Assembly (NCBI GenBank): GCA_017429505.1
Contig: JAFROW010000005.1
Coordinates: 1 to 64,000, forward strand
Length of the DNA: 64,000 nucleotides
DNA from: Clostridia bacterium
GTDB taxonomy: Bacteria > Bacillota > Clostridia > TANB77 > CAG-508
Reading direction: 5' to 3'
Below are positions 1 to 48,272 of the stretch, in pieces. Under the pieces are notes generated by a model that saw only the letters and a program-made list of their open reading frames with translations, ran no database searches and was not told where the DNA came from. The translations under genes and the position numbers were made by a program. Positions within the stretch are counted from its first letter, which is position 1. The number at the start of each line of letters is the position of its first letter.

Positions 1-3000
1 CTGATGTGAATACTACTGCTGTACTTGCTGTTCCTCCTTCTCCTGTTACACTTGCTTCTGCTGTCGTAGTTGCATTATATGCTAATTTGTCTGATGTTGG
101 TTTTGTAAATTCTACTATTCTTGTATATTTTTGTACTGTTACTGTTACGTCTACACTCTTTTCTGCATAATTTGCATTTCCTGCTGCTTTTATTGTTACT
201 ACTACTGTTTGGTCATTATCATTGTCTAGGCTCATTGCTCCTGCTGTTAATTTGCTTCCATTTATGCTAGATTCACTTGTCGTTCCATTTGTTTTTATTG
301 TGTAGCTAACTGTTCCTTGGGCATCACTTACCAATGTACTTAAATCTGTTACACTTAATGTTTTTACTGTTATTGCTGTTTGGCTTACTTTCATTGGATT
401 ATTAGCTTCTTCTACTTTTATTTTTTTAGATATAACATTTCCTGCTTCATCCTTTGCCCAAATATAGTGTGTTCCTACTTCTAATCCTGTTTTTGTTATA
501 GTTGTGTCTTTTGTAGATGTTATAGTTGTCCATCCAGTTGTTGGCTCTGTACTACTTTCATTTATTTGCCATGCTACTACTCCACTTAAAGCATCTTGTA
601 GTCTAATATTTAATGTTTCTCCATATTCTATATTATCTGCAGTTATTGTTGGTTTTGCTGTATCATATTTTATATTAAATGGATCTGATACTTCTGATAT
701 ATTTCCAGATTCATCAATTACTCTAAAATATATTGTATCGTTTATTCCGTTTGATACTTCCCAGTTTTCTTGTCCATAATATGAATCTCCGTCTTGTTTA
801 ATTCCTCCACTCTTTTCTAATGTTAATTTTTTCCATGTATTTTGATTATCATTTGAATATTGGATTTCTTTAACTCCACTTCCTTTTTCTGTTGAAGTTA
901 TTGTAGTATATACTTGTTTATTTGCCCATGTTCCACTTGTATAATTTGCATTACCTTGGCTAAATTTTGCTACATAAGTTGGTTTTGTAGGTTTTATATC
1001 ATCTACATAATTTGCTATATAGTTTTTATCTCCTGTTGATCCTTTTTCAATTGTTACTTGTTTTTGTGGATTATCTCCATTACTTCCTGTCCATCCTGCA
1101 AATGTATATCCTTCTTTTGTTGGCTCAGGTAAAGTAAAGTTATCACTTTCTATTGTATAATTTTCTGGTTTATTTGTTAATGTTCCTCCATTTAAATCAT
1201 AAGTTAATGTATAACTTACTATTTCCCATTGTGCATAATACTCTACATTTCTTCCTGGCATTGTAGTATCTTTTGTTACTTGTTGTCCACCTGTTTTACT
1301 TGTAAACCACCCTTTGAATGTATATCCATTTCTTGTTGATGTTGGTAATTCTCCTAATTTTTCTCCATATAGTTTTCTAATTGATGTACCATTGCTTCCA
1401 CCATTTCCATCAAATGTTGCTGTATAACTTTGTTTTGTCCATTCTGCATATAGAGTTGTATCTCCCTTAAATTCTCCTAATTTATCTTTATCTATATGTG
1501 TTTCTGTTCCATCTGCTTTAGTATTCCAACCATTAAATTCAAATCCCTCTTTTGTTGGATTTACATTTGGCATATTTATACTTGCACCTTTTATGTTATC
1601 TAGATTTGAGCTATTTACTTTTATGTTTGCTTTTTGTGGTGTAGGCGTTTCAGCTCCTGTTCCTCCATTTAAGTTATATGTTATTGTTATTTCTTTTGTA
1701 TAAATTGCATAATAATTTGTGTTATTCTCTATATTTGAAATTGTTCCTTTGCTTGCTATTTTATTTGTTGTTCCATCTGGCTCTGTTGAAGTTGTCCAAT
1801 AAGGTGTTTCTTTAGTCCATCCATCATATCCTGTTATATCTGGAGCTGTTGCACTTCCTTTGTTATTATTCCATATTGTCACAGGATGAGGAACTCCATG
1901 TTTTTCTCCACTTGCATCTTTAAATGATAATGTTATTTCTTTTTTGAATATTGCATAAACTTTAACTCCTTCTGTTGTCATTATAATATCGCTTGTTTGT
2001 GCATTTATTGCATCTTTGTTTGTATTCCATCCTAAAAATGTATAACCTTCTTTTGTTGCTGTTACTTTTGATAAATCTACTTTTGTCCCATATTCAACTT
2101 CATCTGTTTCTTTTGTACAACTTGTTCCACCATTTGTTGTATAATCATATGTTACTAAATACTTATTTGTTTTCCATTTAATTGTTAATGTTTCTTCTCC
2201 ATTTTTTGTATATGTTGGTGTATATTCATCTCCTGGGCTTCCGACTTTTGTATCTCCATTATAATATCCTTCAACTGAATTTCCTTCTTTTGATTGTGTT
2301 GGTAATGTTATTGTTTCTACAGAGTATTGTGCAACTAACTTTGCTTGCCCATTTTTAAATGTAAAATTATTTTCTGATAAAACTCCAGAGCCATCTAAAT
2401 TCCATTTTGTAAAATTAATATTTGATTGTATTGTTTGTACTAAATTATCTCCATCTTTAAACTTAATTTCATAATTGCTTTGTGGTATTGGGTCATCAAT
2501 CTTAATTGAACTTTCTGGTTTTCCTTTTACTTCTGTAATGTTTCTGCTATCGTTCCAAGTTCCTCCATTAGGATCTACTGCTAATTTTACTGCTGCTTCT
2601 CCTATAGCATATGGTCCAAATGTCTCTGTTATCACTTCTCCATCATCTTTTGTTACTTGTACGTGTAAATAATAATTGCCTTCTGTAGTATTCTCAAGTA
2701 TTATAGGTGTCTCTGTTATTTTATCATTTTCTGTTCCATTACTTTTTAATTGCATTTCATCATCGTAATTGATTGGTTCTTCTTCTGAATTTGTCCACAC
2801 ATACTTTACTTTATTTATGTTGTTATGTACGAAGCTTTTTATTGTTATGTTAACCGAGTATTGTTTATTAAGTGATATACTTCCTCTTGGATCGGCATCT
2901 ATCATTATTGCATCATCTAATATTCCTAAATATTTTGCATATCCATTTCTATGTACTTGGTAAACTCTTCCAGATGACTTAAATGTAACACTATACATAT

Positions 3001-3319
3001 TGTTTTTTTGGTAATACTTTAAAATAGTTTTACCTTTTCCAGCATTGGTGTCTAATGCATCTAAGAAGTGTCTTTCCTCCAAATCTCCATATTTGTTTAA
3101 ATTTCTTGCTGAATTTGAAGATACTCCTATTATCTTCATCTCAGCATTTATTTCTGCTTGTTCTTTAGCTTTTCTTGAATTGCCAATTATATTATTTCCA
3201 GATATCGCAGAAATTGTGATTGTGGCAAGAATTAATAAGACAATAACTGTTATAACTAAAGCCATTATGGTTATTCCCTTATTTCTGTTGTTTCTTTCGT
3301 TTACTCCGTACTTGTTCAT
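1..3319 (-). CDS. Giant secreted InlB B-repeat protein, prepilin-like N-terminus (partial)
   Basis: The frame starts at the ATG ending at 3319, behind an AGGAGG site, and stays open to the window edge, so at least 1106 residues are present and the C-terminus is missing. The N-terminus has a short basic segment, then GITIMALVITVIVLLILA, which resembles the prepilin-type cleavage and membrane segment common in clostridial pseudopilins. A mid region carries about five Listeria-Bacteroides (InlB B, Flg_new) repeats, recognisable from motifs such as GYTFLGWNT, GFEFNGWNT, GYTFKGWFT and GYTFAGWTG between roughly 2050 and 1100. After these come Ig-like segments, including a 'DESGNISEV' stretch. The family is extracellular, and a role in surface adhesion is inferred. 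No anchor can be seen because the end is missing. It shares its promoter layout with the three large A genes downstream. Confidence 0.8.
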   Translation of the reverse strand, partial: MNKYGVNERNNRNKGITIMALVITVIVLLILATITISAISGNNIIGNSRKAKEQAEINAEMKIIGVSSNSARNLNKYGDLEERHFLDALDTNAGKGKTILKYYQKNNMYSVTFKSSGRVYQVHRNGYAKYLGILDDAIMIDADPRGSISLNKQYSVNITIKSFVHNNINKVKYVWTNSEEEPINYDDEMQLKSNGTENDKITETPIILENTTEGNYYLHVQVTKDDGEVITETFGPYAIGEAAVKLAVDPNGGTWNDSRNITEVKGKPESSIKIDDPIPQSNYEIKFKDGDNLVQTIQSNINFTKWNLDGSGVLSENNFTFKNGQAKLVAQYSVETITLPTQSKEGNSVEGYYNGDTKVGSPGDEYTPTYTKNGEETLTIKWKTNKYLVTYDYTTNGGTSCTKETDEVEYGTKVDLSKVTATKEGYTFLGWNTNKDAINAQTSDIIMTTEGVKVYAIFKKEITLSFKDASGEKHGVPHPVTIWNNNKGSATAPDITGYDGWTKETPYWTTSTEPDGTTNKIASKGTISNIENNTNYYAIYTKEITITYNLNGGTGAETPTPQKANIKVNSSNLDNIKGASINMPNVNPTKEGFEFNGWNTKADGTETHIDKDKLGEFKGDTTLYAEWTKQSYTATFDGNGGSNGTSIRKLYGEKLGELPTSTRNGYTFKGWFTSKTGGQQVTKDTTMPGRNVEYYAQWEIVSYTLTYDLNGGTLTNKPENYTIESDNFTLPEPTKEGYTFAGWTGSNGDNPQKQVTIEKGSTGDKNYIANYVDDIKPTKPTYVAKFSQGNANYTSGTWANKQVYTTITSTEKGSGVKEIQYSNDNQNTWKKLTLEKSGGIKQDGDSYYGQENWEVSNGINDTIYFRVIDESGNISEVSDPFNIKYDTAKPTITADNIEYGETLNIRLQDALSGVVAWQINESSTEPTTGWTTITSTKDTTITKTGLEVGTHYIWAKDEAGNVISKKIKVEEANNPMKVSQTAITVKTLSVTDLSTLVSDAQGTVSYTIKTNGTTSESSINGSKLTAGAMSLDNDNDQTVVVTIKAAGNANYAEKSVDVTVTVQKYTRIVEFTKPTSDKLAYNATTTAEASVTGEGGTASTAVVFTS

Positions 3320-3364: not shown

Positions 3365-3393
3365 ATACTATCTTCTTTAAAGTTCAAAGTCAA
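3365..3393 (-). promoter_or_regulatory. Promoter of the InlB-repeat gene
   Basis: On the minus strand, TTGACT (3388-3393) and TAGTAT (3365-3370) are separated by 17 nt. This sits about 45 bp upstream of the start codon. Confidence 0.6.
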
Positions 3394-3560
3394 TGGCACT
3401 ATTTGCCTATCTTATGCAAACATAAAAAAAACATTTACGGAAACAGAATTAGAAACTTTTTAGTAATATTATTAAATTTCTGTTACTTTTTTATTACAAA
3501 TATAAAACATTTTTATTAGCTTTATTAGGGAAAAATACACTTTATGGTCATTTTATGTCT
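3394..3560 (-). promoter_or_regulatory. Upstream box region shared with the A-gene promoters
   Basis: This gene-free stretch holds the octamer TTACGGAA (3435-3442, plus-strand reading) exactly 41 bp upstream of the -35 box. A TTAC-T-run-ATTACAA element starts 40 bp further upstream at 3483. The same elements and near-identical spacings precede the genes starting at 29206 and 38835. A second TTACGGAA copy lies at 3734-3741, too far away for the same role. Confidence 0.55.
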
Positions 3561-3735: not shown

Positions 3736-3760
3736 ACGGAATACTTAAATTACTAAACTA

Positions 3761-19531: not shown

Positions 19532-22500
19532 TTAAAGAACTTTTTTCTTTATTATCACAATTCCTGTTGATAATATAATTAATGACATAATTCCTGCTAT
19601 TGCATATAATGTAATCATACTTCTATTTTCTCCTGTAGGTGGAGTAATTGTAAATTTAGCCTTTACCATTCCATTTGTATGAACCTCTTTTGGTGCTATT
19701 TTTACTTGTTCTTCTTTTTCAGCTTGAGGAGTACTATCGTTTGAATCTGGTGTAGGTATAATTCCTTTTATTTCTGCTCTACTTACAACCTCCATGTCAT
19801 CATCTGTATTTGATAATAGTCTATTTGCAACAATTTTTACTTTATCTGATATTGGGTGTTTAGCATCCCTATTTGTAATTTTGTTTGTATATATTGCTTT
19901 CCAACCAACTAAGTCAAGCTCTTGTGCATTTAGTTCTTCACCATCAACTTGAATTATTGAATTTGCATTTCTTTCTATAATTCTATCTTTGTCAGATTTT
20001 TCTTTCAAATAAGTTAATGTTTTATCTAAATAATCTTTTACTAATGTTGGAGTTAATGTAACTTCCTTATTTATATTTCTATCTCCAAACCAATAGTATT
20101 CATTATTATAGTAATTTATATCAGATTTATTAGTAATTTTTACTTCATAAGTTAATTCTAAGTTTGTTCCATATAAGCTATTTTCAAGCATTTCTGTTCT
20201 AACATATGTGCTTCCACCATTTTTCTCATTATCTAAGTCACTTAATGCAACTATACCTTCACTTGGTACATTTTCTGGATTTCCATCATATAATAATTGT
20301 CCACTTGTATTTGTAAGTCTAACATTTGTTATTAATTTTTCAATCTCTGAATCTTGTTCTGGCATTACTATTATACCAAAGCTTAGTCCATTAAATGTTG
20401 TTGCAACTTGTGTATTTAAGTTCTGTACTTCTTGTACTTTTCCATTATCTTTTTGATTTACATTTGATGAAGTTCCTGTATTATCATTTTCTATTGTTAT
20501 AGAAACCTTTGCTGTTCCTGCCATTGAAGTTTGTGTTTTTCCTTCATTTACATTTTTTCTTACACTTAAATTGTCTACTGCTACAGAATCATTTTCACTT
20601 GTTATTTTCTTATACCATTCTTCTCCTTCTTTTCCTTGTAAGGCTTTTTTAGCTGCATCATTAGTTACAATTGTAGATTTGTAATCTTTAGCTACTATTG
20701 TTTTAAGCTCTTTTCCACTTACATCACATATCTTTTGAGTTCCATCCCCATAAGTAAATCTTAGGAAATATCTTCCTGGAACAATTCCATTTAGTGTATA
20801 ATTTCCGTTTTGATCTGTAACAACTTGTGCTGGTTTTGATATAACTGTTCTTTGTGTGTTTCCACTACCTTGTGCTTCATATAAATTTGAAACTTTTAAT
20901 TTTGTAATATCTGTTTCTGTTCCTGTTGCATCAAGTAATTCAACTTTAGCACCTTTAACTACATTTTCATTATTGTCATATTTACCATTTCCAAGTTTTT
21001 GTCCATCTGTTGTCACTACCTTATCTTCAAATACTTTTCCTTTAAGAATTCTTTCTTGTCCCAATTTAAAGATTAAGTATGGTGCATCAGCATTCATTGT
21101 TGTATCTGATGTTATATGTGTTTGTTTGTTTTTAGATTTTATATTATAATCCCATCCATAGTCATACCTTACATAATTATGATTTCCTATTGTTGTAACT
21201 TTTGTTGGATATTCTTCTATAATTCCATAAGGATGATTTAGAATATCTAATATAGCATCTCTATTTACTTTAAATTCAATACGTTTTGTAGCTGTTTTAT
21301 TTGAGCCAATACTTTCGATTCCTTTTGTATATTGAGCGTTAGCTTTTGCTTTATCACCATTTGTTACTTTCCAATTTTTTTCATTCTCACTTAATGAATA
21401 TCTTTTTGCATCAAATTCATTTACTAAAGATGATATATTTAATTCTTGTTCTTGATATAATTCTTCATAGTTTTTCGCCGCACTTCCAGTTCCTATTGTA
21501 GTTGTATTTGTTATATCAATTCTATATCCTACATATACTTTTAACTCTTCTTTTCCATTTTTTGCTTCATAAGCAATATCTGATGGATAGATATCTGCTG
21601 TGTATCCAGAAATAGTTCCTTTCTTTTGGAAATTAACTCTTGGAGCTGCAACACTACTTGAATTACCTCCAGAACCATATTTATACGTATAAGTATATCC
21701 TCTCATAACTATTTTTACATATTCTAAATTTTCGTTTACAGTATAATCTGCATTAGGAATTTCTTTAATTCCTAGATTAATATTATTTACTGTTAAATTA
21801 GGTTCATCAAAAGTTCCACATTTCATAAATCCATAAGTATCTATTGCTGATGTTCCTGTATATGTTGTAGCAATTCCAGATAAATCATCATCTTTTGTTG
21901 CAACATTTTTCATCATTGCTTTTGAACCATTTTCTGCAGTTGCGTTAAATGCTACTGGAATATATTTTTTTCCTACTGCATCATTATAGTTAAATTCTAC
22001 ATAGTACTTCTCTAACTCTGATAATTTTATTAAACTATCAAATAAATATTTTCCTTCTGAATCAGTTGTAGCTGTTCCAACAGGTGTATTATCTCCTTTT
22101 TTCATTAGTCTTACAGTTACTCCACTAATCTTCGATTCTCTTGAACTATCATATAAACTATTAAATGCTCCATCTTTAGTTGCTTGTGTATCTTCCCATA
22201 TAAAGCCTTCAATTGATACTTTCTTAATATTTGTAATTGTTGTATTTACATCATATATATCATTGTCTGATGATATTGTTACCTCTTTTTTAGTATCTGC
22301 ATATCCCTTTTCAGCATCATATCCTTCTTGATGTTTTAATAAATATCCTGTAGGTGGTTCAACCTCATATATATGATATGTTCCATCATCTAATCCATCT
22401 ATTTTTAGACCATTTTCGCTTGGATAAATTACATTGTCTTCTGATGAATATTCATTTTTAAATCTATATATTGTAGCACCTTCATAAGATGCATTATATG

Positions 22501-24625
22501 TGTATGGTGCTTGTGTGCCCTGTAACCAACCATTTGGAGTTTTTACTTTAAATCCTGCACCTTCTATATTTTGATTAGTTTCCACATCTTTTTTATAAAT
22601 TGTTATAGAACCTTTTCTTAAGTTTTTAAAATCAGATTTAGGATCTCTATTTGAACTATTAATTTTCATATCTATAGAAGTTGTTGGTTGTACAGCTAAT
22701 ATATATCCTTTTGGTGCACCAACTTCTTTTATAGTATATGTACCATACAATAATCCATCTATATATAATTTTCCATTAGTTGTTGAATATACTTTAGCAT
22801 TTGACTCACTACTTGTATAAGTATTTATATCAGTTAACCATCCTCTTCCAGATCTATATATTTTAAAATCTGTTGGATCTGTAATTACATAATTTTTCTT
22901 TAAATCTCTTTTTGTTACTGTAAGGCTTCCTGTTGGTGTATTATAGAAATCCATTGCTGATGGTGTTGGATTAGAACTACTAATCGTTCTTCTTTCTGTT
23001 TTTGAAGATAATAAATATCTACTTGGTGCCTGTATCTCTTTTGCTATATAAGTTCCTTCTTCTAATCCTTCAAATGCTCTTGTTCCATAAACATCATATC
23101 GTTCTGCTTGACTATAAAGATTGTCATACTTATATGATCCTTCTGAACCACTTAAATATCCTTTTGATGTTCTTATTACAAATGTTGCTGCTGAATTTGA
23201 AATTAATTTTCTTGTAACTGAATCAAATTTATTAATAACTATACCATATTCAGTACCTTCATTAGGTTCATCTGGTTCATCTAGTTCATCTGGTTCATCT
23301 GGTTCATCTGGTTCGTTATAAAACACTAATGCAGAAGGATTTAAATTTGAACTAGTAATTGTTACATTCTTGCTTGATGTTGATATTGTGTAATTTTTTG
23401 GAGCTTTTGTTTCTTTTATTGTATATGTTCCAAGTTCTAGTCCTTCTAAATTTATTTCTCCATTTTTATCTGTTTTATATGTTGATCCTGTTTTATCATC
23501 ATATGTATATGACCCTTTTGTACCTTTTAGCCATCCACTTGATGTTTGTATTTTAAATTGTGCTTCCATATCTTCAGAAGTATTTTTTATAGGTTGATTA
23601 GTTCTTGAATCTTTTTTTACAATTTTTATACTACCTAATTTTTCAGTAATTGAAACACTAATTGGATCTGAAACAGGCCAAGCTTGTCCTGTTTCTGCTA
23701 TCATAAAATCTTGACCTTCACCATAATAGCAAAACCACATCTCTGCTTTTAAAACAGTATTTTTACTTTCAGCCTGTACACTTGTTACATTTCCACCATT
23801 ACTATTCACTATATATACTTCGTCTCCAGATTTTATATCTTCAAGAGAAACTGTTTTATTATTTACTTTGTACGAAATATTTTTTATCTCTGTGCTGCCA
23901 TTCCAAAGCTTTAAATAATTCAGCTTACCATTAAATGTAAACTTTAGTGGTCCTATTAACTTCATAGATTCAACTTGTAACTTTTTTTTATTAGAGCTTA
24001 TTGTTGGATATTTATTATCAGCTTTATTACTATAAGCATTTGCACGATTTATGAAATTTATAATACTACTATCGCTAAAATAAGCACTATGCATCACAGC
24101 CCTTGAAATACCTAGCTTAGTTCCTACGCTTGAAAACCAACTCCCATTATTATCTAAATACCCATGAACTGCTCTTGTACGAATTTTATCAGTACCTGAA
24201 CCACTATATCCTAAACGATACCCTTCTTGAGAAAGTAAATATGCTAAAGCAACATTCTTTTTATTCTCTACAGGTGTTCCTTCTGATTTTGTACTATATG
24301 CTCTATCTCCTTCTATTCTTGCATACCCCACAATATTATAAAGTGCTGATACTGAATCAGTATTAGCATGATGGTGAATACAGTAAACATGATCTGATTC
24401 TCTTAATTGATTTATTACACCATCATTTCCACCATTGTGAATCCATACTTTCTTTCCAACAGCCTTTTCCCCTGCTGCTATAAGAGCAGCTCTTGTTTTA
24501 TAATCAGATTTTTTATACTTTGGATTACTAGTGTCTGTGGCATTTATTCCCTTTGACAATAACATTACAAATAACATAATAAATAATAAAATTAAAATTA
24601 TTACTTTGTTAAATTTCTTTATCAT
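19532..24625 (-). CDS. Adhesin B3: SpaA/SdrD-type surface protein, TPPTG sorting signal
   Basis: This 1697-residue protein starts at an ATG behind AAAGGAG, 18 bp after A3. It has a signal peptide (about 1-27), then an N-terminal domain with a VYCIHHH motif and the ALAYLLSQEGYRLGYSG segment, which is reminiscent of thioester-type surface domains but not assignable. From about 328 to 800 run four to five SpaA/Cna-B-like repeats (such as KIVKKDSRTNQPI…FKIQTSSGWLKG…GTYTIKETKAP). SdrD B-like modules follow at about 803 (GFIWEDTQATKDGAF) and 1190 (KGKVFEDKVV). The C-terminus is TPPTGE, a hydrophobic helix and KKKVL, a sortase-type signal with Thr in place of Leu. An Asp-Glu-Pro repeat lies at about 437-454. 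The role is probably a wall-anchored adhesin or pilus-like stalk. Confidence 0.85.
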   Translation of the reverse strand: MIKKFNKVIILILLFIMLFVMLLSKGINATDTSNPKYKKSDYKTRAALIAAGEKAVGKKVWIHNGGNDGVINQLRESDHVYCIHHHANTDSVSALYNIVGYARIEGDRAYSTKSEGTPVENKKNVALAYLLSQEGYRLGYSGSGTDKIRTRAVHGYLDNNGSWFSSVGTKLGISRAVMHSAYFSDSSIINFINRANAYSNKADNKYPTISSNKKKLQVESMKLIGPLKFTFNGKLNYLKLWNGSTEIKNISYKVNNKTVSLEDIKSGDEVYIVNSNGGNVTSVQAESKNTVLKAEMWFCYYGEGQDFMIAETGQAWPVSDPISVSITEKLGSIKIVKKDSRTNQPIKNTSEDMEAQFKIQTSSGWLKGTKGSYTYDDKTGSTYKTDKNGEINLEGLELGTYTIKETKAPKNYTISTSSKNVTITSSNLNPSALVFYNEPDEPDEPDELDEPDEPNEGTEYGIVINKFDSVTRKLISNSAATFVIRTSKGYLSGSEGSYKYDNLYSQAERYDVYGTRAFEGLEEGTYIAKEIQAPSRYLLSSKTERRTISSSNPTPSAMDFYNTPTGSLTVTKRDLKKNYVITDPTDFKIYRSGRGWLTDINTYTSSESNAKVYSTTNGKLYIDGLLYGTYTIKEVGAPKGYILAVQPTTSIDMKINSSNRDPKSDFKNLRKGSITIYKKDVETNQNIEGAGFKVKTPNGWLQGTQAPYTYNASYEGATIYRFKNEYSSEDNVIYPSENGLKIDGLDDGTYHIYEVEPPTGYLLKHQEGYDAEKGYADTKKEVTISSDNDIYDVNTTITNIKKVSIEGFIWEDTQATKDGAFNSLYDSSRESKISGVTVRLMKKGDNTPVGTATTDSEGKYLFDSLIKLSELEKYYVEFNYNDAVGKKYIPVAFNATAENGSKAMMKNVATKDDDLSGIATTYTGTSAIDTYGFMKCGTFDEPNLTVNNINLGIKEIPNADYTVNENLEYVKIVMRGYTYTYKYGSGGNSSSVAAPRVNFQKKGTISGYTADIYPSDIAYEAKNGKEELKVYVGYRIDITNTTTIGTGSAAKNYEELYQEQELNISSLVNEFDAKRYSLSENEKNWKVTNGDKAKANAQYTKGIESIGSNKTATKRIEFKVNRDAILDILNHPYGIIEEYPTKVTTIGNHNYVRYDYGWDYNIKSKNKQTHITSDTTMNADAPYLIFKLGQERILKGKVFEDKVVTTDGQKLGNGKYDNNENVVKGAKVELLDATGTETDITKLKVSNLYEAQGSGNTQRTVISKPAQVVTDQNGNYTLNGIVPGRYFLRFTYGDGTQKICDVSGKELKTIVAKDYKSTIVTNDAAKKALQGKEGEEWYKKITSENDSVAVDNLSVRKNVNEGKTQTSMAGTAKVSITIENDNTGTSSNVNQKDNGKVQEVQNLNTQVATTFNGLSFGIIVMPEQDSEIEKLITNVRLTNTSGQLLYDGNPENVPSEGIVALSDLDNEKNGGSTYVRTEMLENSLYGTNLELTYEVKITNKSDINYYNNEYYWFGDRNINKEVTLTPTLVKDYLDKTLTYLKEKSDKDRIIERNANSIIQVDGEELNAQELDLVGWKAIYTNKITNRDAKHPISDKVKIVANRLLSNTDDDMEVVSRAEIKGIIPTPDSNDSTPQAEKEEQVKIAPKEVHTNGMVKAKFTITPPTGENRSMITLYAIAGIMSLIILSTGIVIIKKKVL
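23265..23315 (-). repeat. 9-nt tandem repeat encoding Asp-Glu-Pro linker
   Basis: About six near-perfect copies of a 9-base unit (ggttcatct on the plus strand) encode the DEPDEPDELDEP linker of B3. Copy number could change by slippage without changing the frame. Confidence 0.75.
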
Positions 24626-24643: not shown

Positions 24644-27600
24644 TTAGAACGTTGTATTCTCCTTTATAACTTTTTTTATTATCACATAAGAAATAGTAGC
24701 TATTGTTAATGATATTAATAATGTTATTATAATGTATCTAATAGCTATACCTGTGCTTACACTTATAATCAAATCTGCACCAGATATATCATCATATTGA
24801 CTTGAATTTTCGTCAATTACTCCTTGTGAATTATAGTATTCTTCTATTTCTGCTTTATTATTTGTAAGTCCTGTATTTGATTCTGTCATTGTTTTTGTTA
24901 AAACTAATGTTATTTCTTTTGTTTCTCCTGGTTCTATTATTGTATTTGCTAAACTTGTAGTATATAGAGTATTTCCTGATTGATACCAATCTTTGTTAAG
25001 TTTAGAATTGAATTTTAGGTCAGATGGTTTATTGTCTACTATTTTTTTAGCATAACCTGGTAATTCTCCATTATTGGTTACTTTTATTTTGTACTCTATA
25101 AGTACAACTGAACCTTTTAAGTATTTACCTTTTATTTCTACTTTTGCTAAATTTGTATCTGAGTATTTTATACTTTTGTTTCCTTCTGCATTGCTTACAG
25201 TTACTTTTGATATAGTTTTAGATAAACTCAAGTCAAACTTTTTAGCTTCAACTAGTCCTATATCTATATTTCCTATGCTATTTTCATTTAAAGTTAATGT
25301 ATCTGTAGAAGCCACCTTTTTGTTTTCCCCATTTATTTTCATTGTCACATTTTCTGCATCAGAATTATTGTTTGAGTTTGCTTCTTCTGAATGATATTTT
25401 GTTAAAGTGTATTTTCCTTTATCATATTCAAATATTACAACATATTTTCCATTATTAACATTAGTAAAATAATATAATCCATTAGTATTTGTTGTAGTAC
25501 TACCTACTTCTGCATTTTTTTCTATATCAAATAATGTAGCTTTTATTCCTTCTAAATATTTTTCGTTTACGTCTCTTTTTCCATTTCCATTTTCATCTAA
25601 CCATGCTGTTCCTGATATTGCATTTTTATTTGGAATAGTTGTGCTTCCATCTGTCCCTGTTCCACTATTTCCTGCATTATCACCTCTTGTTCCGTTATCT
25701 CCTGTACTATCTCCATCTGTTCCTGTATCGTCTTTTACTATATAATCTTCTGGATTATATTCTTCTGTTTTTGGAACTTCTATGTTATAAGTAATTTCAT
25801 CTGTTTCATCAATTTTTATACCATCACTATAAATTTCTAATTTATTAGTAATTTTTAAATTTTCTTTTTCTGGTAGTTCTTCAATTACTTTACCTACAAT
25901 TTCTAAAGTTATTTCTTTTCCTGCTTTTAACTCTTTTACTATTTCTAATCTATCATATTCTGTATTTTCTGTAGTCAAGACTTCCTTTTCATATTCGCAA
26001 TTTTCTCCATCAATTATAAAGGTTTCTATATTTAAATATTTTGAAATTTCATCTATAATTGTTAATCTTCCAGCATCTTTAATTCCTGTATTTTTTATTT
26101 TAAATACATACTTAATTTTGTCATTTGGTTTTACATATCCTTGTGTAGTAAGTTCTGTTGTTGCTTGTGATGTTGCTTCAATTTTTGCTAAAACCCCAAC
26201 AATTCTCTCTTCTAATTCATTAGATCTATATGTATTTCCTTCTGAGTCTGTTGCCTGAGCATTTATTTTTGTTGTTTTTAATTGATTTTCGTTTTCTTTA
26301 ATAGCATTAGCTGTTGCATTAATAGTAACTTTTATAGTTTGATTAGCAGCTATTGAATCAAAACTTAAAGTATTATTATTTAGTTCTATTATTCCTTGTC
26401 CTTCATCTTCTATATACCAATCAATAATATTTATAGATAAAGCTTCATTTTTATTTAATATTAGTTTTATGTTTCTTTGTTCTTCATTAGTTAAATTAGT
26501 AATTTTTATTTCATATTTGTAATTATAATCTGCTTCTAAATTATCATTTGGTTTTCTATATAATGGTGCACATATAACCTGTAATTTTGCTGGACTTATT
26601 TTGTTAGAAATAGTTTTTTCATCTTTTTTCTCATTATTTTCACTAAATGAGAATTTAGCTTCAATATTTTTTTCCTCTGTTATATTTTCATTTGCCATTA
26701 CCATAAATGAATATGTGTAATCTTTTCCTGCTCCAATACTTATGTTTTCTTGTTTTAATGTAGTAGTTTGTTCTGTTTTACTATAATACTCTTCTCCTTT
26801 TGTATATTCATCTCTTTCCTCGTTATATTTTGGATAATTCGGATTAATCTGTACTAAAGTTGTATTTTCTGGTAAATTTACATCTATTTTTAATCCTGTT
26901 TTATCTGCTGAACTTGGGTTACTTATTGTTGCAGCATATGTAATTACTTCTCCTGCTTTTATTGTGTCTCCTTCTACAATTGCTTTTCCTCCAACTTTGG
27001 CAGAAACTGCATATCTTAAACTTGCATTTTGTTCATTTCCACTTTGGCTTCCAGAGCTTCCTCCTTGGCTTCCGCTTCCTGAATTCCCCCCTTCATTGCC
27101 ATTTTGTCCTTGGTTTCCTGTGCTTCCTCCTTCATTGCCACTTTGTCCTTCGTTTCCTGTATTTCCTCCTTGTGATTGTGCTGCTATTTGTATATTTACT
27201 TTCTGTGTTCCATTGTCTGTATATTTTGTTGCATTTTCGTTTGTATATGTCATAACTATTTCTTCATTACTATTTGTAGCAGTTTGATCTATTTCTACTT
27301 CTGTTTTTATAGATATTGTTGTTCCTGTTATTGCTTCTCCTAAATAATATGTTTGTTCTCCAGTTAATTTTATACTTAATACTTTTTGTCCATTTTCTTC
27401 TATTACTTTGTAATTTCCTTCTGTCAATTCTAATCCATTATCTGCATGCATTAGTTGTGGCATTTGCTTATATGTTACATCTTTTACTTGTTGTGGTAAC
27501 TTTATTTTAAGTTCAGGATTTTTATATAAATCTTGATTATCACCACGTGATTCCAGTACAGCTGTTAAATTTAATTCTTGTTTTTCTGCTGAAGCAATTA

Positions 27601-29206
27601 GTGCTGTTTGTTCACATTGTAAACTAGCTTTTGATTCTGTATCTTTAAGATTTATATTATATGAACTTGTAAATGTAAAAGTATCATTATTATTTTTTGT
27701 ATATTTTATTGAAGAACTATCTTTAAGTTTAGTAAATTCTTTTATTTGTTGTCTTGTATAATCTGTTTTTAATATTCTTTTTGTTGTTTCAACTATAAAT
27801 GTTCCATTATTTACAGGTTTACTTGTTTTTATTGTTATAGTTTTCGTTCCTGCAGGTAATTGTATTATAACATCTCCATTTGAATCTGCTTGGCTTTCAT
27901 TAGTAATTGTTGTTTCTCCTATTGTTAAATTCCATGTATTTCCTAATACACTTGCTACTTTTTCTTTATTTATTTTTAATGTTTTTATGTCTATATCTGC
28001 ATCACTTTCAATTTTATTTATTGTTCCATTTTCTTCTACTTCTTTTATATATTTTGAATTTTCTTCTGATATTTCTATGTCTTTTACTCCATCAACATAA
28101 TCAACATGAACTATAGAATATGAAGTAATATCTCTTCCTCCTGTATATATTTTTCCTTTATATATAGAAGTTTCTCCCTCTTGTTTACTTATACTTGCAA
28201 TTCCGTCTTTTTCTTCACTTAATGAAATTTGTACTTGCTCTGCATTTAATTCACTATTATTTTGTGCTGTTATTTTTTCATTTATTGTAATTTTTTGTGT
28301 ACTTAAATCTGCATTTTCTGAGAATTCATAAGTAACTACAAAAATATCAAGTACATTTTTCATCCAACTAATTTTTCCTTCTTCTTCTGTGTTATTAATA
28401 TTTATTGTTAAAATATCATTTTCTACATTATAATTAGCAGATGTAAATTCTTGTTCTCCATTTGTTGCTTTTGTTGTTCTTTTGTGTACTTCTACATTTG
28501 TAGCTCCTGTTGGTATTGTTGCTGTTATATATGTATTTTTTACAGGATACGCATTATTTGTTAATTTACTAGATGTTAAAAATTGTACAACCTTTTTATT
28601 TGCTTCATTTACTTTATATGTTGAATTTGTTTGGATTTTTGCTGCAAGTTCAGCTTTAACGTTTTCTGGCATTTTCCATGTAACTTTTACACCGTTTCCA
28701 CTATCTATATCAACATTTCCTACACTATTCGTGTATTTACCAACTAATTTTACTATAGTTTTTTGACTTAAAGTTGAAGCTTGTATTTTATCATCTTCGA
28801 AATATTCAATTCCTACTTCTATTGCAGCAGTTTCATTTGCATTAATTTGATTTAAAATTATTTCATTATCTTTTATTTCTTTTATATAGTCATTTGCTGT
28901 AGCTTGACATAATTTAAATCCTGCATCTTGTAATGATATTTTTCCATTAAAATATCCTTCATTTTTTACTGCAACATCAATTTTCAGTTTAATGTCTTTT
29001 GCATCTATACTTTTTTCAATATCTGTAAGCTCTTCCTCTCCATTTTTAAAATATGCTCTAAATTGAACATTGTCACTTTGTGTTGCAAGTAAATCTATAG
29101 CATAAGATGTTGCTAAAAATCCTGTTATTGCATACTGACCTAATAAAATAACTAATATTATCATAATTGCAACCCATTTTTGAATAAATACTTTTACGTT
29201 TCCCAT
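24644..29206 (-). CDS. Surface protein A3: DUF11-like, membrane-anchored partner of B3
   Basis: This 1520-residue protein has an N-terminal hydrophobic segment (about 13-35) and then a family-specific region whose hallmark is VEVHKRTTKATNGEQEFT (about 235-255), shared with the paralogues starting at 38835 and 53255. A Gly/Asn/Gln-rich linker lies at about 675-720. DUF11-like domains follow (about 730-1180, for example TNLTNEEQRNIKLIL and IKNTGIKDAGRLTI), then an SdrD B-like module at about 1197 (SGTAWLDENGNGKRDVNE). A C-terminal DUF11-like domain ends in a transmembrane helix with a basic tail (about 1480-1510). Unlike B3 it has no LPxTG-like motif beyond a residual VSTG before the helix, so membrane anchoring is more likely than wall attachment. 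Confidence 0.82.
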   Translation of the reverse strand: MGNVKVFIQKWVAIMIILVILLGQYAITGFLATSYAIDLLATQSDNVQFRAYFKNGEEELTDIEKSIDAKDIKLKIDVAVKNEGYFNGKISLQDAGFKLCQATANDYIKEIKDNEIILNQINANETAAIEVGIEYFEDDKIQASTLSQKTIVKLVGKYTNSVGNVDIDSGNGVKVTWKMPENVKAELAAKIQTNSTYKVNEANKKVVQFLTSSKLTNNAYPVKNTYITATIPTGATNVEVHKRTTKATNGEQEFTSANYNVENDILTININNTEEEGKISWMKNVLDIFVVTYEFSENADLSTQKITINEKITAQNNSELNAEQVQISLSEEKDGIASISKQEGETSIYKGKIYTGGRDITSYSIVHVDYVDGVKDIEISEENSKYIKEVEENGTINKIESDADIDIKTLKINKEKVASVLGNTWNLTIGETTITNESQADSNGDVIIQLPAGTKTITIKTSKPVNNGTFIVETTKRILKTDYTRQQIKEFTKLKDSSSIKYTKNNNDTFTFTSSYNINLKDTESKASLQCEQTALIASAEKQELNLTAVLESRGDNQDLYKNPELKIKLPQQVKDVTYKQMPQLMHADNGLELTEGNYKVIEENGQKVLSIKLTGEQTYYLGEAITGTTISIKTEVEIDQTATNSNEEIVMTYTNENATKYTDNGTQKVNIQIAAQSQGGNTGNEGQSGNEGGSTGNQGQNGNEGGNSGSGSQGGSSGSQSGNEQNASLRYAVSAKVGGKAIVEGDTIKAGEVITYAATISNPSSADKTGLKIDVNLPENTTLVQINPNYPKYNEERDEYTKGEEYYSKTEQTTTLKQENISIGAGKDYTYSFMVMANENITEEKNIEAKFSFSENNEKKDEKTISNKISPAKLQVICAPLYRKPNDNLEADYNYKYEIKITNLTNEEQRNIKLILNKNEALSINIIDWYIEDEGQGIIELNNNTLSFDSIAANQTIKVTINATANAIKENENQLKTTKINAQATDSEGNTYRSNELEERIVGVLAKIEATSQATTELTTQGYVKPNDKIKYVFKIKNTGIKDAGRLTIIDEISKYLNIETFIIDGENCEYEKEVLTTENTEYDRLEIVKELKAGKEITLEIVGKVIEELPEKENLKITNKLEIYSDGIKIDETDEITYNIEVPKTEEYNPEDYIVKDDTGTDGDSTGDNGTRGDNAGNSGTGTDGSTTIPNKNAISGTAWLDENGNGKRDVNEKYLEGIKATLFDIEKNAEVGSTTTNTNGLYYFTNVNNGKYVVIFEYDKGKYTLTKYHSEEANSNNNSDAENVTMKINGENKKVASTDTLTLNENSIGNIDIGLVEAKKFDLSLSKTISKVTVSNAEGNKSIKYSDTNLAKVEIKGKYLKGSVVLIEYKIKVTNNGELPGYAKKIVDNKPSDLKFNSKLNKDWYQSGNTLYTTSLANTIIEPGETKEITLVLTKTMTESNTGLTNNKAEIEEYYNSQGVIDENSSQYDDISGADLIISVSTGIAIRYIIITLLISLTIATISYVIIKKVIKENTTF
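27045..27180 (-). repeat. Gly/Asn/Gln-rich linker repeat in A3
   Basis: Short repeats of GNEGG, GNQGQ and GSQGG units are encoded here. This looks like a flexible linker between the family-specific region and the DUF11-like domains. Confidence 0.7.
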
Positions 29207-29236: not shown

Positions 29237-29265
29237 ATCTTACAACCTTATTTTTTGAAAGTCAA
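29237..29265 (-). promoter_or_regulatory. Promoter of the A3-B3 cassette
   Basis: Minus-strand TTGACT (29260-29265), a 17-nt spacer and TAAGAT (29237-29242), about 30 bp before the start codon. Confidence 0.6.
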
Positions 29266-29420
29266 TACAGACTTTTGGTTCTAGCTTTATAGTGGTAAAA
29301 TTATGTTTACGGAAGGTACTTTGTCGCTTTTTATTGTTTTTTGTTTACATTTTTTTTACATTTTTATTACAAGATTACTCTAAAATTGTTTTTTTCTTAG
29401 GGGCAAGTGTTTTTATAGTA
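29266..29420 (-). promoter_or_regulatory. Upstream boxes of the A3 promoter
   Basis: TTACGGAA (29307-29314, plus-strand reading) lies exactly 41 bp upstream of the -35 box. TTACATTTTT (from 29356) lies exactly 41 bp further upstream. CTTAGGGGCAAG (29397-29408) recurs as CTTAGGGACA upstream of A2. Confidence 0.55.
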
Positions 29421-29535: not shown

Positions 29536-32500
29536 CTATAATATCTTGTGCTTAATTATTACAACTCCTGTAGCTAAGACAATTAGAGCAAATATTCCTG
29601 CTACTATATATTCTGTATGTATTTGCTTGTTTTCACCTGTAGGAGGTGTAACAGTTACTCTTGCTCTTGCTGGTTGTGGAATAGTTGGCTGTCTTACTAG
29701 TTTTATTGTTTCTTCTGTATCTGAGCCTGCTAGTTCATCTGAAGATTTTCCTTCTATAGAGTTTTTCACTTCTGTTATTTCTATTGTATTTAAAACATCC
29801 ATATCTACGTCATCTGTAGCTAATACTCTAGTCACTGATATTGTAAAGTCTTTTCCTTTTCCTGTTGCAATATTATTTAAATTTAATACTGCAAGTAATT
29901 TTTTAAATGGCTCTCCTCTCTCTTTTTGACTTTCTATAATGCCTTCATTTATTCTCGTATATTCTTTATGTGTTATTGGATCTTTCCATACAGCTCCTAT
30001 TTTTGTTAATTCTGTTATTTCAGCTTCTATTGTTTTTATTTCAACTTTATCGTCTTTAACATATATTGTTGTTGGGTCACAATAGTCTATCATTTCTTTT
30101 ACATCTGTTTCTACTTTCTTCGAATAATTTGGATCTGTTTCCCCATATATGTAATACATTCCTTCGTGTGCTTTATCTGTTTCTGTATATGTATCTTTTG
30201 AAGTATTTCTTATTTCAATTCCATATTCTATTTCTATTGTAGAAGCATATATATAGCTATCTGCAAGCTCTATCCTTGTAAAAGTACTTCCTCCATTTTC
30301 AGTTGAGTCTAAATCACTTACCCCTAACATATCTGTAACTTTTTCAGGATTACCATTAAAAATTACATTTTGCTGAGCATTTGTTAATTTTACATTTGTT
30401 ATTATCTTTTTAAGTTCCGAGGTTCTCTCAGGTAATTCTATAATTCCTAAATTAAATCCTTTAAAAATCTCTTTTACTTCATCTTTGTTTGCTATTGTTT
30501 TGTTTATATCTTTTATTATAGTCGTTTCTTTATTTTCTTCATATTGTATAGTATCTTTTTCTTCTGATTTTGTTATTTCTATAGCTTGAGCTTGATTTTG
30601 TGTTGTATTTTCTATTGTTATATAACTAACAGGTGTATCAGCTTCTATTGTTTTTAAATTTCCTGTTGTATCATAATTTATCTTTTTTCTCTGCTCTAAA
30701 TTATCCACTGCTGTTGAATATAGTTTATTATCTATCTCTGTGTTATTTCCATTTAAAAACTTATACCATTCTTTTCCGTGTTTGTTTTCTCCATTTCCTA
30801 AAGCATTTTTTGCACTCTCTAAAGTTATGATTGTAGATTTATTTTCTTTTACATCATAAATTGTACCATCTCCATAAGTAAATCTTACTACATATTCTCC
30901 AGGTAATACTCCATCAAAACTATAATTGCCTTCTTCAGTTGTCTTTTGTGGATTTTGTGTTCCTAATGGTTCATTTTTTGTATATCTTGTTGCAACCTCT
31001 AAATTTCCATCTTTTTGAGTATATAATTGTACTGTAACATCTTTTATATTTTTCTCACTCTCATCTTTTATTCCGTTTCCTACTACTTCATTCTTATTTT
31101 TGCTTTCCTGTGTTGCCTCGTCTTTAAAAACTGTTCCTGTAATTGTACGTTCTTTGTTATCTGGCAATTTAAATATCATTCCTGGAGCTCTTGCTTGTCC
31201 TAATTTTGCTGGTGTCCTATGTGATTGATTTAGTTTTGATAATGTATTTGCAAACCATGCATAGTCATTTCTTTTATAATCATGATATGCTGTTGTTTTT
31301 GCTATTACTTCAGTTGCATTTACATTTCCACTTAGTATTTTGTTTATTTCTGTTCCACTTACTTTAAATTGTATATATACACTTTTTGTTTCTCCTGGAC
31401 CTAATCCATCATTGAAAGTATCCCCAATATATTTTGTTGTTGTACCTTCTTCAGATATACTTGGTGACTGCCATTTGTTAAAGTCTTCACTTGCACCTGC
31501 ATCAAAAGTAGGATCTATATCTGTTGTATTTAGTTCATATTTTGAATCTATTTTTTCTGTTAGGCCTGTTATATTTAGTTTATCTTCTACATATATATCT
31601 GGTACATTATATAATGATGTATTTTTTATAAATATTCTATATACAACATATACTTTTAGTCTTTCTCCTTTATTTGCATCCATAGACGCCTTATTTGCTA
31701 ATACATCTGATGGATAGATATCTCTTGTATATGAGTTTGTACTTGTTCCCATATTTACTAATGGAGTATCTGCTAAAGTCACATTTCCCATTCCTCCGTA
31801 TATATATTTGTATTTTGAATTGTCAAAATGTACTTTTACATAAGCTATATCTTGTTCAATTCTAAATTCTGGATCTTTTAGCTGTTTTAATCCTAAGTTT
31901 ATTCCATTCATTGTATTATTATTTGGAGTGTATAATTCTGTTTTAAAGAAATGTGATAAACCATAGTTGTCTTCATTACTTTGTGGTCTTTGTCTATATG
32001 TTGTTGCTTTTCCTATGAAATTGCCATCTGTTACAGGTAAAATGTCATCTTTTACATCATCATATATTAAAGCTTTTGATGTATTTACGTCTGTTCCTTC
32101 ATTTAATTGTACTGGAACATATTGTTTATATTGCGTTTTAGAATAATCAAATTCTATATAGTAGTCTTTTAAGAAATTTACATTAACTTTATTAAATTTA
32201 TAAGCTCCGTCATCTCCTGTATTTGCTGTATTATTTGATTCATCTGTATAGCCTTTTACTAGACTTCCATCTGATTTATTTCTTAAAGTTACTATTACTC
32301 CTTTAGGCTTTTCTTCTCCATTATCATATTTGTTATTTGCTATATTTTGTTTTCCATCTGGCTTGTCTATCCATACATAACCTGAAATATCTATTAACTT
32401 TCTGTTTGTAGTATTAAAAATTTTGTTTTGGGCATCTTCTAAATCAAAACTATTTTCTATTAATACATAGTTATTTGTAGCATCATAATTCTCTTGTGCT

Positions 32501-34635
32501 GATAAATAATAATCATCTGGTGCTACAACTTCTACTAATCTATATGTTCCTGCTTTTAAGTCTTTTATCGTTGTTGCTCCTGTTACTGCATCTGTATAAT
32601 ATGGATTCCTTCTTGCTACATCTAATGTGTTTTTATATGTATAATTTCCATTTGTTCCTTGAACATAACCTTTATCTACATAAGAATAAATTGCAAATCC
32701 AGCTCTAAGTTTTTCCTTCGTGTATTGATCTTCTTTGTTAATTGTTATGTCTCCATATCTTTTGTTTGTTCCATTAAATATAATTGTAGCTCCATCTGTA
32801 AGAGTTTGTGAATTTCCTATTTTTACAGATGAATTACTATAGCCATCTTGCCTACTTAAAATATATATTTTTGGTGATGTAGGTGCTTCTACTTCATATA
32901 CCTCATAAGATGATAATTTAAGTTCTTCTAAAGTAATTGAACCTGAATTAGTATAATATGTATCTCCTCTATTCATAGTTGAATTGTTATATTTGTATGA
33001 GCCTTTTGAGCCTGATAGCCAGCCATCACTAGTCTTTATTTTAAATCCAGCTCTTAGCCCTTCTCCTGAATACTCATCTGCCATATTAATTCGCAAATTT
33101 CCAAATTTTCTATTCGTAGTATTAAATGTAATAGTTTCTCCTGTGCTTAGTTGCTTTGTTCCTACTTTTACTTTTCCATTTTCGTATCCTATTTGTTTGG
33201 TTAAATCATAAGTTGATGGTGGTTCAACTTCATAAACTTCATAAGTTCCATCTTTAAGTCCGGATAAAGTTTTACTTCCCCTTAATGTATTATATACATC
33301 TGCTCTTTCTTCTGAATTAGAATATGTATATGATCCATCTCCCTTTAACCATCCTTCTGATGTTTTTACTTTAAATCCTGCATTTAAATTTTCTCTTGTA
33401 TCTTGATCTTTTTTTGTTATTACTAAATTGTTTTCTATTCTAAATTTATATTCTACTTTAGAAGAACTTGAATAACTTTCTCCTGCAAAGACACCTGCCT
33501 GCTGTCCAACTAAACCACTTGATTTTCTTACATCTCCATTGGAGTTTACAGTTCCTATACCAGCGCATAAAAGTAATTTAGCTTTATATAACATCATAGA
33601 ATCTTGTATTATATTTACACTTACATCTTTGTTTACAAGTGAATCTGAATTACTTATTTTTAGGTAAAATTTTTCATTTGATGGAATACTAGATACAGAA
33701 TTATTCCAATTGCTATATCCATTATATGACCAAGAAATATCTGCTTTTTCTTTTACTCTACCAACTTTAACCTCAACAGAATTAATTCCTTTTCCTCCAT
33801 ATTGTACTTCTAATGGTCCTATTATATAATCAGAATCTTGTTTTTCTGCATCAAAATAAGTACTTATTTTTTTTATACTTTCATAGCTTGCTACTTCAGT
33901 AGCATAATTTTCTGCTTCACTCATTAATTGTTTTGCTTTTCTTTTATTAGCAGCACCATCAAAATCTTCACTATCATCATGTGTCATATAATAATGTCCA
34001 GTATCTGATTGAAAAAATTCTGGTTGACTAACATTTATAAAAGCAATACCTCTTCTATTGTCATTGGCGTAATTTGCATATACCGAATTTCTTTTTACTC
34101 TCATATCATAAAAAGTCTCAGCTAAAGCAACATTTCCTGGTGCTGTATAATTCATGTTTTTTCCATCTGATGGAACAGTAGATTGATATTCTATTAAATA
34201 CGCTAGCTTAGGAATATTTCCTTTACCTGCAGAATTTAATCCTGCCTGAGATAAAGTTCTTCCATTTTGTGTTATAGTATATCCATTACTTCCATATTCT
34301 ATAGTAAAAACATCAGACACTTCTCTATATACTTCTCCATTAGGGCTATTAATTGGATGACATAAGCATGTTACATATCTATAATCTTCAGTAAGATAAC
34401 TTACTCCACCGCTACTATCAGATTTAAAAGTTTCTCCATAATAAGTAGAATCATTAGCATTAATAAATGTACTAGTATTTTCTCTAATATACCTTTTAAA
34501 ATCATCAATATGGTCTATAGTATAACTTCCTATTGTAAAGCTAGCATTGCTTGTTCTACTTTTTGACGAAAATACTACTATAAAAACTAATATGGTAATT
34601 ATTATTATTTTTAAGAATATTTTTATTTTTTTCAT
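29536..34635 (-). CDS. Adhesin B2: SpaA/SdrD-type surface protein, TPPTG sorting signal
   Basis: The 1699-residue product has a signal peptide (about 1-30) and an N-terminal domain unlike B1 and B3 except for a CLCHPI cysteine motif and a conserved YLIEYQSTVP-type helix. Four SpaA-like repeats occupy about 402-745 (NLVITKKDQDTRENLNAGFKVKT, AGFKIKTSDGWLSGSKGSY and so on). SdrD B-like modules occur at about 748 (GYVWIDKPDGKQN) and 1162 (TGTVFKDEA). The C-terminus carries VTPPTGE, a hydrophobic helix and KHKIL, a sortase-type signal. The start has no evident ribosome-binding site: the nearest purine stretch is over 20 nt upstream, so translation may depend on coupling to A2, which ends 30 bp before. 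Confidence 0.84.
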   Translation of the reverse strand: MKKIKIFLKIIIITILVFIVVFSSKSRTSNASFTIGSYTIDHIDDFKRYIRENTSTFINANDSTYYGETFKSDSSGGVSYLTEDYRYVTCLCHPINSPNGEVYREVSDVFTIEYGSNGYTITQNGRTLSQAGLNSAGKGNIPKLAYLIEYQSTVPSDGKNMNYTAPGNVALAETFYDMRVKRNSVYANYANDNRRGIAFINVSQPEFFQSDTGHYYMTHDDSEDFDGAANKRKAKQLMSEAENYATEVASYESIKKISTYFDAEKQDSDYIIGPLEVQYGGKGINSVEVKVGRVKEKADISWSYNGYSNWNNSVSSIPSNEKFYLKISNSDSLVNKDVSVNIIQDSMMLYKAKLLLCAGIGTVNSNGDVRKSSGLVGQQAGVFAGESYSSSSKVEYKFRIENNLVITKKDQDTRENLNAGFKVKTSEGWLKGDGSYTYSNSEERADVYNTLRGSKTLSGLKDGTYEVYEVEPPSTYDLTKQIGYENGKVKVGTKQLSTGETITFNTTNRKFGNLRINMADEYSGEGLRAGFKIKTSDGWLSGSKGSYKYNNSTMNRGDTYYTNSGSITLEELKLSSYEVYEVEAPTSPKIYILSRQDGYSNSSVKIGNSQTLTDGATIIFNGTNKRYGDITINKEDQYTKEKLRAGFAIYSYVDKGYVQGTNGNYTYKNTLDVARRNPYYTDAVTGATTIKDLKAGTYRLVEVVAPDDYYLSAQENYDATNNYVLIENSFDLEDAQNKIFNTTNRKLIDISGYVWIDKPDGKQNIANNKYDNGEEKPKGVIVTLRNKSDGSLVKGYTDESNNTANTGDDGAYKFNKVNVNFLKDYYIEFDYSKTQYKQYVPVQLNEGTDVNTSKALIYDDVKDDILPVTDGNFIGKATTYRQRPQSNEDNYGLSHFFKTELYTPNNNTMNGINLGLKQLKDPEFRIEQDIAYVKVHFDNSKYKYIYGGMGNVTLADTPLVNMGTSTNSYTRDIYPSDVLANKASMDANKGERLKVYVVYRIFIKNTSLYNVPDIYVEDKLNITGLTEKIDSKYELNTTDIDPTFDAGASEDFNKWQSPSISEEGTTTKYIGDTFNDGLGPGETKSVYIQFKVSGTEINKILSGNVNATEVIAKTTAYHDYKRNDYAWFANTLSKLNQSHRTPAKLGQARAPGMIFKLPDNKERTITGTVFKDEATQESKNKNEVVGNGIKDESEKNIKDVTVQLYTQKDGNLEVATRYTKNEPLGTQNPQKTTEEGNYSFDGVLPGEYVVRFTYGDGTIYDVKENKSTIITLESAKNALGNGENKHGKEWYKFLNGNNTEIDNKLYSTAVDNLEQRKKINYDTTGNLKTIEADTPVSYITIENTTQNQAQAIEITKSEEKDTIQYEENKETTIIKDINKTIANKDEVKEIFKGFNLGIIELPERTSELKKIITNVKLTNAQQNVIFNGNPEKVTDMLGVSDLDSTENGGSTFTRIELADSYIYASTIEIEYGIEIRNTSKDTYTETDKAHEGMYYIYGETDPNYSKKVETDVKEMIDYCDPTTIYVKDDKVEIKTIEAEITELTKIGAVWKDPITHKEYTRINEGIIESQKERGEPFKKLLAVLNLNNIATGKGKDFTISVTRVLATDDVDMDVLNTIEITEVKNSIEGKSSDELAGSDTEETIKLVRQPTIPQPARARVTVTPPTGENKQIHTEYIVAGIFALIVLATGVVIIKHKIL

Positions 34636-38866: not shown

Positions 38867-38895
38867 ATATTAACCTCTAATATTATTGAAGTCAA
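38867..38895 (-). promoter_or_regulatory. Promoter of the A2-B2 cassette
   Basis: Minus-strand TTGACT (38890-38895), a 17-nt spacer and TAATAT (38867-38872), about 30 bp before the start codon. Confidence 0.6.
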
Positions 38896-39045: not shown

Positions 39046-39154
39046 TAATTGTTGTATAAACTAATATAACATCAAAAATAAATGTAACAAATTTATACTC
39101 TAAAGAAGTAAAAATACTGTAACAAAAATGTAATATAATTTCACTCAAAAATAG

Positions 39155-48210: not shown

Positions 48211-48272
48211 AATTTTTTCTCCTTTCATTTTTAATTTATTTTTTATAAACATTTATAATCCTCCTTTCACCC

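Follow-up and report, generated by a model that had tools for sequence, protein, structure and literature searches.

The stretch analysed here (the window, 64,000 nucleotides of a Clostridia bacterium genome) carries, on its minus strand, a gene for an InlB-repeat surface protein and three cassettes of A and B genes, which are named below by the positions at which they start (Table 1). The C termini of the B proteins and of the papain/Big_2 protein encoded by gene 39326 combine a PPTG or LPYTG motif, a hydrophobic stretch and basic residues, which is typical of sortase substrates. The A proteins (34666-38835, 24644-29206 and 48273-53255) end in TG followed by a hydrophobic stretch with no preceding proline, PPTG being found in the B proteins; these endings possibly represent two sorting classes. 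By eye, the N terminus of the InlB-repeat protein, like those of the proteins at loci L030 and L103, is prepilin-like and not a plain signal peptide. Genes for MinC, PBP, MreD and MreC (54862-59100) adjoin the cassettes, and the region 7449-16546, which encodes TnpV, a relaxase, Mob_Pre, a large serine recombinase and KilA-N, is a probable integrated mobile element.

Table 1. Surface protein genes and upstream elements in the 64,000-nucleotide window.
Feature	Position	Strand	Details
InlB-repeat (Flg_new) surface protein gene	2..3319	-	runs off window; Pfam Flg_new 2.6e-38
Core promoter of gene 3319	3365..3393	-	TTGACT 3388-3393, 17-bp spacer, TAGTAT 3365-3370
TTCCGTAA box of gene 3319	3435..3442	-	41 bp upstream of -35
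WalR-like repeat of gene 3319	3482..3498	-	TGTAAT-N5-AGTAAC, second half-site imperfect
CCCTAA upstream box of gene 3319	3525..3530	-	next letter T, not G
B gene of cassette 1	19532..24625	-	directly after A gene; SpaA repeats; C terminus with PPTG
A gene of cassette 1	24644..29206	-	SdrD_B; DUF11
Core promoter of cassette gene 29206	29237..29265	-	TTGACT 29260-29265, 17-bp spacer, TAAGAT 29237-29242
TTCCGTAA box of gene 29206	29307..29314	-	41 bp upstream of -35
Three WalR-like half-sites of gene 29206	29344..29371	-	TGTAAT-N5-TGTAAA-N5-TGTAAA, 11-bp register
CCCTAAG upstream box of gene 29206	29396..29402	-	
B gene of cassette 2	29536..34635	-	C terminus with PPTG
A gene of cassette 2	34666..38835	-	longest ORF start 38850; no Pfam family at E<=0.001
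Core promoter of cassette gene 38835	38867..38895	-	TTGACT 38890-38895, 17-bp spacer, TAATAT 38867-38872
TTCCGTAA box of gene 38835	38937..38944	-	41 bp upstream of -35
WalR-like repeat of gene 38835	38985..39001	-	TGTTAC-N5-TGTAAA
CCCTAAG upstream box of gene 38835	39025..39031	-	
Upstream region of papain/Big_2 gene 39326	39118..39160	+	WalR-like TGTAAC-N5-TGTAAT; TTGACT 37 bp from first half-site
B gene of cassette 3	43777..48252	-	after A gene
A gene of cassette 3	48273..53255	-	SdrD_B
Divergent block of cassette 3 gene 53255	53310..53421	-	three TGTWA half-sites 53394-53421, CCGTAA 53368-53373, TTGACA 53332-53337

The initial annotation had placed a TTGACT-17-TAnnAT core promoter upstream of each of genes 3319, 29206 and 38835, and all three were found on the minus strand exactly where it put them. 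It had also described a box, TTCCGTAA (TTACGGAA on the plus strand), and, beyond it, a TTAC- and T-rich element at regular distances; we measured exactly 41 bp between the end of TTCCGTAA and TTGACT in all three promoters and a further 40, 41 and 41 bp from the box to the outer element, as had been stated. It had overlooked that the outer element is a WalR-type direct repeat, with TGTAA copies spaced by 11 bp, and that one more box, CCCTAA, is common to the three promoters and starts 87-88 bp upstream of TTCCGTAA. With 0.77 copies expected, the window contains five copies of TTACGGAA, and none of 100 shuffles reached this number. Two of the five copies are away from promoters, one at 5172 (inside ORF 4933-5298) and one at 3734; the latter (3734-3741, minus strand) is flanked on one side by the stop codon of a G5/3D-domain gene (3761-4729) and on the other by a strong terminator-like hairpin (ca. 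3691-3729).

The multi-box architecture, its helical spacing and its association with large surface proteins have held up, but the proposal that all large surface proteins are controlled in this way goes too far. Gene 53255 has a divergent block, also overlooked in the initial annotation, in which the distance from the box to the -35 element is 11 bp shorter than in the three promoters and in which CCCTAA was not found, and the region upstream of gene 39326 contains TGTAA and no TTCC box.

The genome to which the window belongs (1,975,431 bases in 14 contigs, 96% complete) was searched with the composite pattern TTCCSTAA-N39-53-TTGAM-N17-20-TAnnAT, the same pattern read backward serving as a control. 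A TTCCSTAA box followed by a suitably spaced σA-like promoter was retrieved at the three window sites only (control, one match), so that the pair is not scattered at random over the genome. The pattern CCCTAAN{69,99}CCGTAAN{26,56}TTGA returned four rows from the same three places (backward control, one), and TTCCGTAA-N36-46-TTGAC, in which no -10 element is specified, added one place, C8:139062 (control, one).

When the strict TGTAA form, TGTWAYNAAAATGTWA, was used, 16 rows at 13 places were obtained in this genome (control, one). Three of these places precede giant cassette genes (29206, 38835 and 53255), one stands before a secreted ORF that is truncated at the end of its locus (L157), and nine are in front of other genes, including 39326, mreB (MreB_Mbl, 4.5e-142), genes for a CBM25 protein and a small LAYTG protein, and spoIIIAB. 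An exact TTCCSTAA is present at two of the 13. Of the ten places that do not belong to cassettes, six have their best -35 element 27-59 bp from the first half-site, one has it at 92 bp, and three have no convincing -35; the repeats of the window blocks begin farther out, ca. 105 bp from the -35 element, which counts against the explanation favoured below. In view of these sites, TGTAA seems to serve as a general signal of the envelope, with TTCCSTAA as an addition for large surface genes. The "dedicated activator or repressor" of the initial annotation therefore survives in part: TTCCSTAA, the part linked to large surface genes, looks dedicated, but TGTAA fits a WalR-type envelope regulator, and the factor bound there would not be dedicated, since mreB and other genes also have TGTAA boxes in front of them. 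The TGTAA-box promoter of locus L156 (G000 C12:171427) is accompanied by a short frame, prepilin-like by eye, and by a phage-type integrase gene ca. 370 nt from the box, perhaps reflecting integration into a surface gene.

A sequence-only model was built from the three own blocks and six blocks of a relative of the same genus, G013. It matched 93 of 117 congeners at E<=0.01 (best 1.5e-30), and the reversed model, a control run on the genus only, matched five (best 5e-4). Together with the pattern counts in the own genome, these figures rule out chance in an AT-rich genome, which the initial annotation had also considered improbable. No block was found by the model at E<=0.01 in the other 24 congeners, which counts against the explanation favoured below. 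Among 191 genomes of the order, 86 matched at E<=0.001; they represent 22 of 39 genera and are nearly all from the own family, with four genomes from a second family, in which locus L136 has TGTAA repeats and TTCCGTAA with a poor -35 element. Eight of 196 genomes of the class matched, of which four are from the order; in the remaining four, the match is partial and weak, at 1.4e-5 to 5.6e-4. The three window promoters are instances of an architecture whose conservation extends over a family of gut Clostridia.

With the exact pattern CCCTAAN{69,99}CCGTAAN{26,56}TTGA, which is present in six of 55 genomes, G013 gave nine rows at seven places and the other 53 relatives stayed at control level. 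Restriction of the block to G013 was nevertheless rejected as an artefact of the exact pattern, which underestimates the relatives because these often have TTCCCTAA in the middle position or carry TTACGSAA, inverted, upstream. ORFs behind the G013 blocks range from 2,099 to 3,352 aa, and only the longest is not cut by a contig or stretch end. The first gene behind a block is not always giant: on G013 contig C11, it encodes a 410-aa SpaA protein at the head of an operon that includes cohesin/dockerin and InlB-repeat proteins. Several genomes are rich in blocks (14 model matches in G266, 12 in G013 and seven in G258), hinting at expanded sets of giant adhesins.

A strict composite pattern, TGTAAYAAAAATGTAAN{28,56}TTCCSTAAN{32,52}TTGA, was run across 84,980 species and retrieved 61 stretches, whose titles are all Clostridia, Clostridium, Clostridiales, Clostridiaceae or Eubacteriales. 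They are represented by 63 rows, since locus L065 was entered three times. Taking the longest ORF with a start within 300 nt as the downstream gene, we found that it reaches 1000 aa or more in 44 of the 63 rows (42 of the 61 loci); in 17 it is truncated at the end of the locus, and in two (L068 and L085) it is short and closed. Fifty-nine of the 61 proteins were analysed further, each cut to 900 aa, with two of under 150 aa left out. A strongly hydrophobic N-terminal segment is present in 57 of the 59, and single linkage at E<1e-10 divides them into nine clusters of 36, 13, 2, 2, 2, 1, 1, 1 and 1 members. Their Pfam families include DUF11 (12 proteins), the thioester domain (seven) and SpaA (three), and Cna_B, LRR_5, RCC1 and others occur in single members.

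The distance between the TTCC box and the -35 element is 40-42 bp in 31 of the 63 rows and 49-52 bp in 28, four rows deviating; the two classes differ by one helical turn. In loci preselected to have TTGA 32-52 bp after the box, the best -35 element in a scan of 20-79 bp lies 39-43 or 49-53 bp past the box in 57 of 60 non-identical cases. On the other side of the box, TGTWA half-sites peak near -36, -46, -57 and -67 relative to TTCC. Distances from TGTAA to TTCC fall into classes of 45-48, 55-58 and 65-68 bp, which are no independent evidence of phasing because the strict pattern may match different members of an 11-bp repeat array. The spacing to the -35 element is cleaner, apart from the preselection for TTGA. 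In a search blind to TGTAA, made with TTCCSTAA and the promoter only, all 17 matches, from five genomes, have TGTWA at -55 to -58; ten of them are G013 copies, and the independent number is therefore smaller.

Further upstream, the blocks are less uniform. Sixteen of 60 loci have an inverted TACGNAA at -45 to -48 from the TGTAA pair, and eight have a forward TTCC[CG]TA or CCCTAA at -30 to -33; neither pattern detects an upstream copy in 36 loci, which also counts against the explanation favoured below. When positions are counted from the TTCC box, -95/-96, -103 to -106 and -115 to -118 account for 21 of the 25 inverted matches. In these 21 rows, the four out-of-position rows having been removed by hand, the letters of the upstream and middle boxes co-vary (9/3 versus 2/7, p=0.03, relatedness ignored), which is a hint only. 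In L067, L093, L036, L041 and L128, the upstream copy, TTCCGTAAG or TACGCAAA, appears by eye to lie inside terminator-like hairpins of the preceding gene.

The repeat was compared with the WalR consensus TGTWAH-N5-TGTWAH and its VicR refinement, TGTWAHA-N4-TGTWAHA, as they appear in excerpts of two papers (PMC9210968, PMC4168254). The match to TGTWAH-N5-TGTWAH is exact at genes 29206, 38835, 53255 and 39326; at gene 3319 it is not, the second half-site being AGTAAC. Of the OmpR-type regulators encoded in the own genome, four are full, and one further frame is short. One regulator, on contig C1 (L119), has YycF as its best family (308.7 bits with a cut-off of 340; next family, 242.8), and its DNA-binding domain, with the helix GDIRTVDVTVRRIREKIE, is closest to the PDB structures of VicR, YycF and WalR. 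The WalR-like regulator is found, with one match each at E<=1e-60, in 107 of the 117 congeners. By eye, the neighbours of L119 code for a pilin-like protein and an RNase HII-like protein. The score below the cut-off counts against WalR identity, as do the lack of a kinase gene (walK) in the 3231-base locus around L119 and the similarity of the PhoP-type box to the TGTAA repeat. No regulator that could be linked to the block was seen among the window proteins scanned for families (sets of 4, 10 and 10).

The blocks resemble the WalR (YycF/VicR) regulons of Bacillota, as these are described in the excerpted sources, in having tandem TGTWAH-N5-TGTWAH repeats upstream of the -35 element, often with A at position 7, in the presence of envelope genes among the targets and in the presence of a WalR-like regulator in the genome. 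They differ in the greater reach of the repeats in the window, in the second conserved element, TTCCSTAA, and the further upstream box, in targets that are large adhesin-like proteins, and in a regulator that is below the YycF equivalog cut-off with no adjacent kinase. A sortase substrate with WalR-type sites upstream is also known from Clostridioides difficile: according to the excerpted text, CD630_27680 (NlpC/P60) has two predicted sites ca. 100 nt upstream of the start codon and is down upon WalR overproduction (PMC9210968). That case differs in being a single hydrolase gene repressed by WalR overproduction, and a second element of the TTCCSTAA type is not mentioned in the excerpt (PMC9210968). 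In the literature searched, partly seen as excerpts, we found no description of such a block or of how these giant surface proteins are controlled, which is weak evidence of novelty, and none of the listed matches to the four box words has a bacterial promoter context. Composite promoters in which tandem sites for an OmpR-family regulator are joined by the site of a second factor, at distances shifting by whole helical turns, are known in general; the blocks described here differ from these in being spread across a family of uncultured gut Clostridia and in having a second factor that is putative.

We consider it somewhat more probable than not, from the sequence features above, that a WalR-type regulator and a second factor act together on a σA promoter through a composite, helically phased block that serves large adhesin-like proteins. 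The tandem TGTAA half-sites would be bound by an OmpR-family response regulator of the WalR/YycF type, probably the WalR-like protein of contig C1, and TTCC[C/G]TAA, which in part of the loci is repeated further upstream in either orientation, by a putative second DNA-binding protein. From the same face of the helix, both proteins may act on the promoter TTGAMW-17-TAnnAT, either directly or via a short loop. The long distance from TGTAA to the -35 element (ca. 105 bp), the fixed register and the shift by a whole turn suggest either a bridge between WalR and the polymerase, formed by the protein at TTCCSTAA, or a short loop held by both. Transcription would more likely be raised than lowered. 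All WalR-type sites of the blocks are upstream of the -35 element, as at WalR-activated genes, and activation is the better guess because such sites accompany activation in Staphylococcus aureus, according to the excerpted report (PMC10746227). Repression is possible because, again in excerpted accounts, CD630_27680 falls on WalR overproduction (PMC9210968) and S. aureus sasD is under negative control by WalR (PMC10746227). Large surface proteins would in this way be coupled to signals of cell-wall growth and to one further input.

A clade-specific regulator other than WalR that binds both the TGTAA and the TTCC boxes, close to what the initial annotation proposed, is in our view unlikely, though it deserves consideration. 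It would account for the linkage of the blocks to large surface genes and for their occurrence mostly within one family among the sampled genomes, but not for TGTAA boxes that stand without a TTCC box in front of mreB and other genes, and the agreement of the repeat with the WalR consensus and the wide presence of the WalR-like regulator in the genus speak against it.

We also asked whether TTCCSTAA could act in RNA, where an intrinsic terminator or attenuator with the box in its loop would stop upstream read-through before the promoter of the surface gene. In L115, L112, L062, L076 and L072, long inverted repeats carry TTCCSTAA at their apex or close to it, several of them with T runs behind them in the manner of intrinsic terminators, and at eight of 60 loci an unusually stable hairpin (z<-2) is predicted at the box, an observation that two proteins bound to DNA do not explain. 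Over the 60 loci, however, the median z is -0.26; folding at the window boxes is weak (-7.5, -2.2 and -3.2 kcal/mol), and none of these boxes is terminator-like. The box is upstream of the main -35 element, a conserved transcribed hairpin was not found, and helical spacing to the -35 element is not expected of a terminator, so that we regard this possibility as quite improbable. Inheritance of the similarity by duplication of whole promoter-gene cassettes, with no function of its own, would fit the many near-identical copies in G013 and the G055 genes whose N termini resemble those of 3319 and 29206, but it is very hard to reconcile with proteins in nine clusters unlinked at E<1e-10, with diverged sequence between the boxes and with a box-to--35 length that shifts by about one helical turn and not freely.

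Returning to the two-protein reading, one can extend it to the family as a whole: an enhancer-like promoter of ca. 140 bp (about 13 helical turns), occupied by two proteins on one face of the DNA, may bring unrelated giant adhesins under one logic, and new adhesin genes may be captured by gaining the block. We hold this wider view tentatively. The gut Clostridia concerned, represented here mostly by metagenome assemblies, encode very large surface proteins. With a well-defined block, much of their giant-adhesin regulon could be listed from DNA alone; the block also allows one WalR-like regulator to be predicted and directs attention to a further putative protein.
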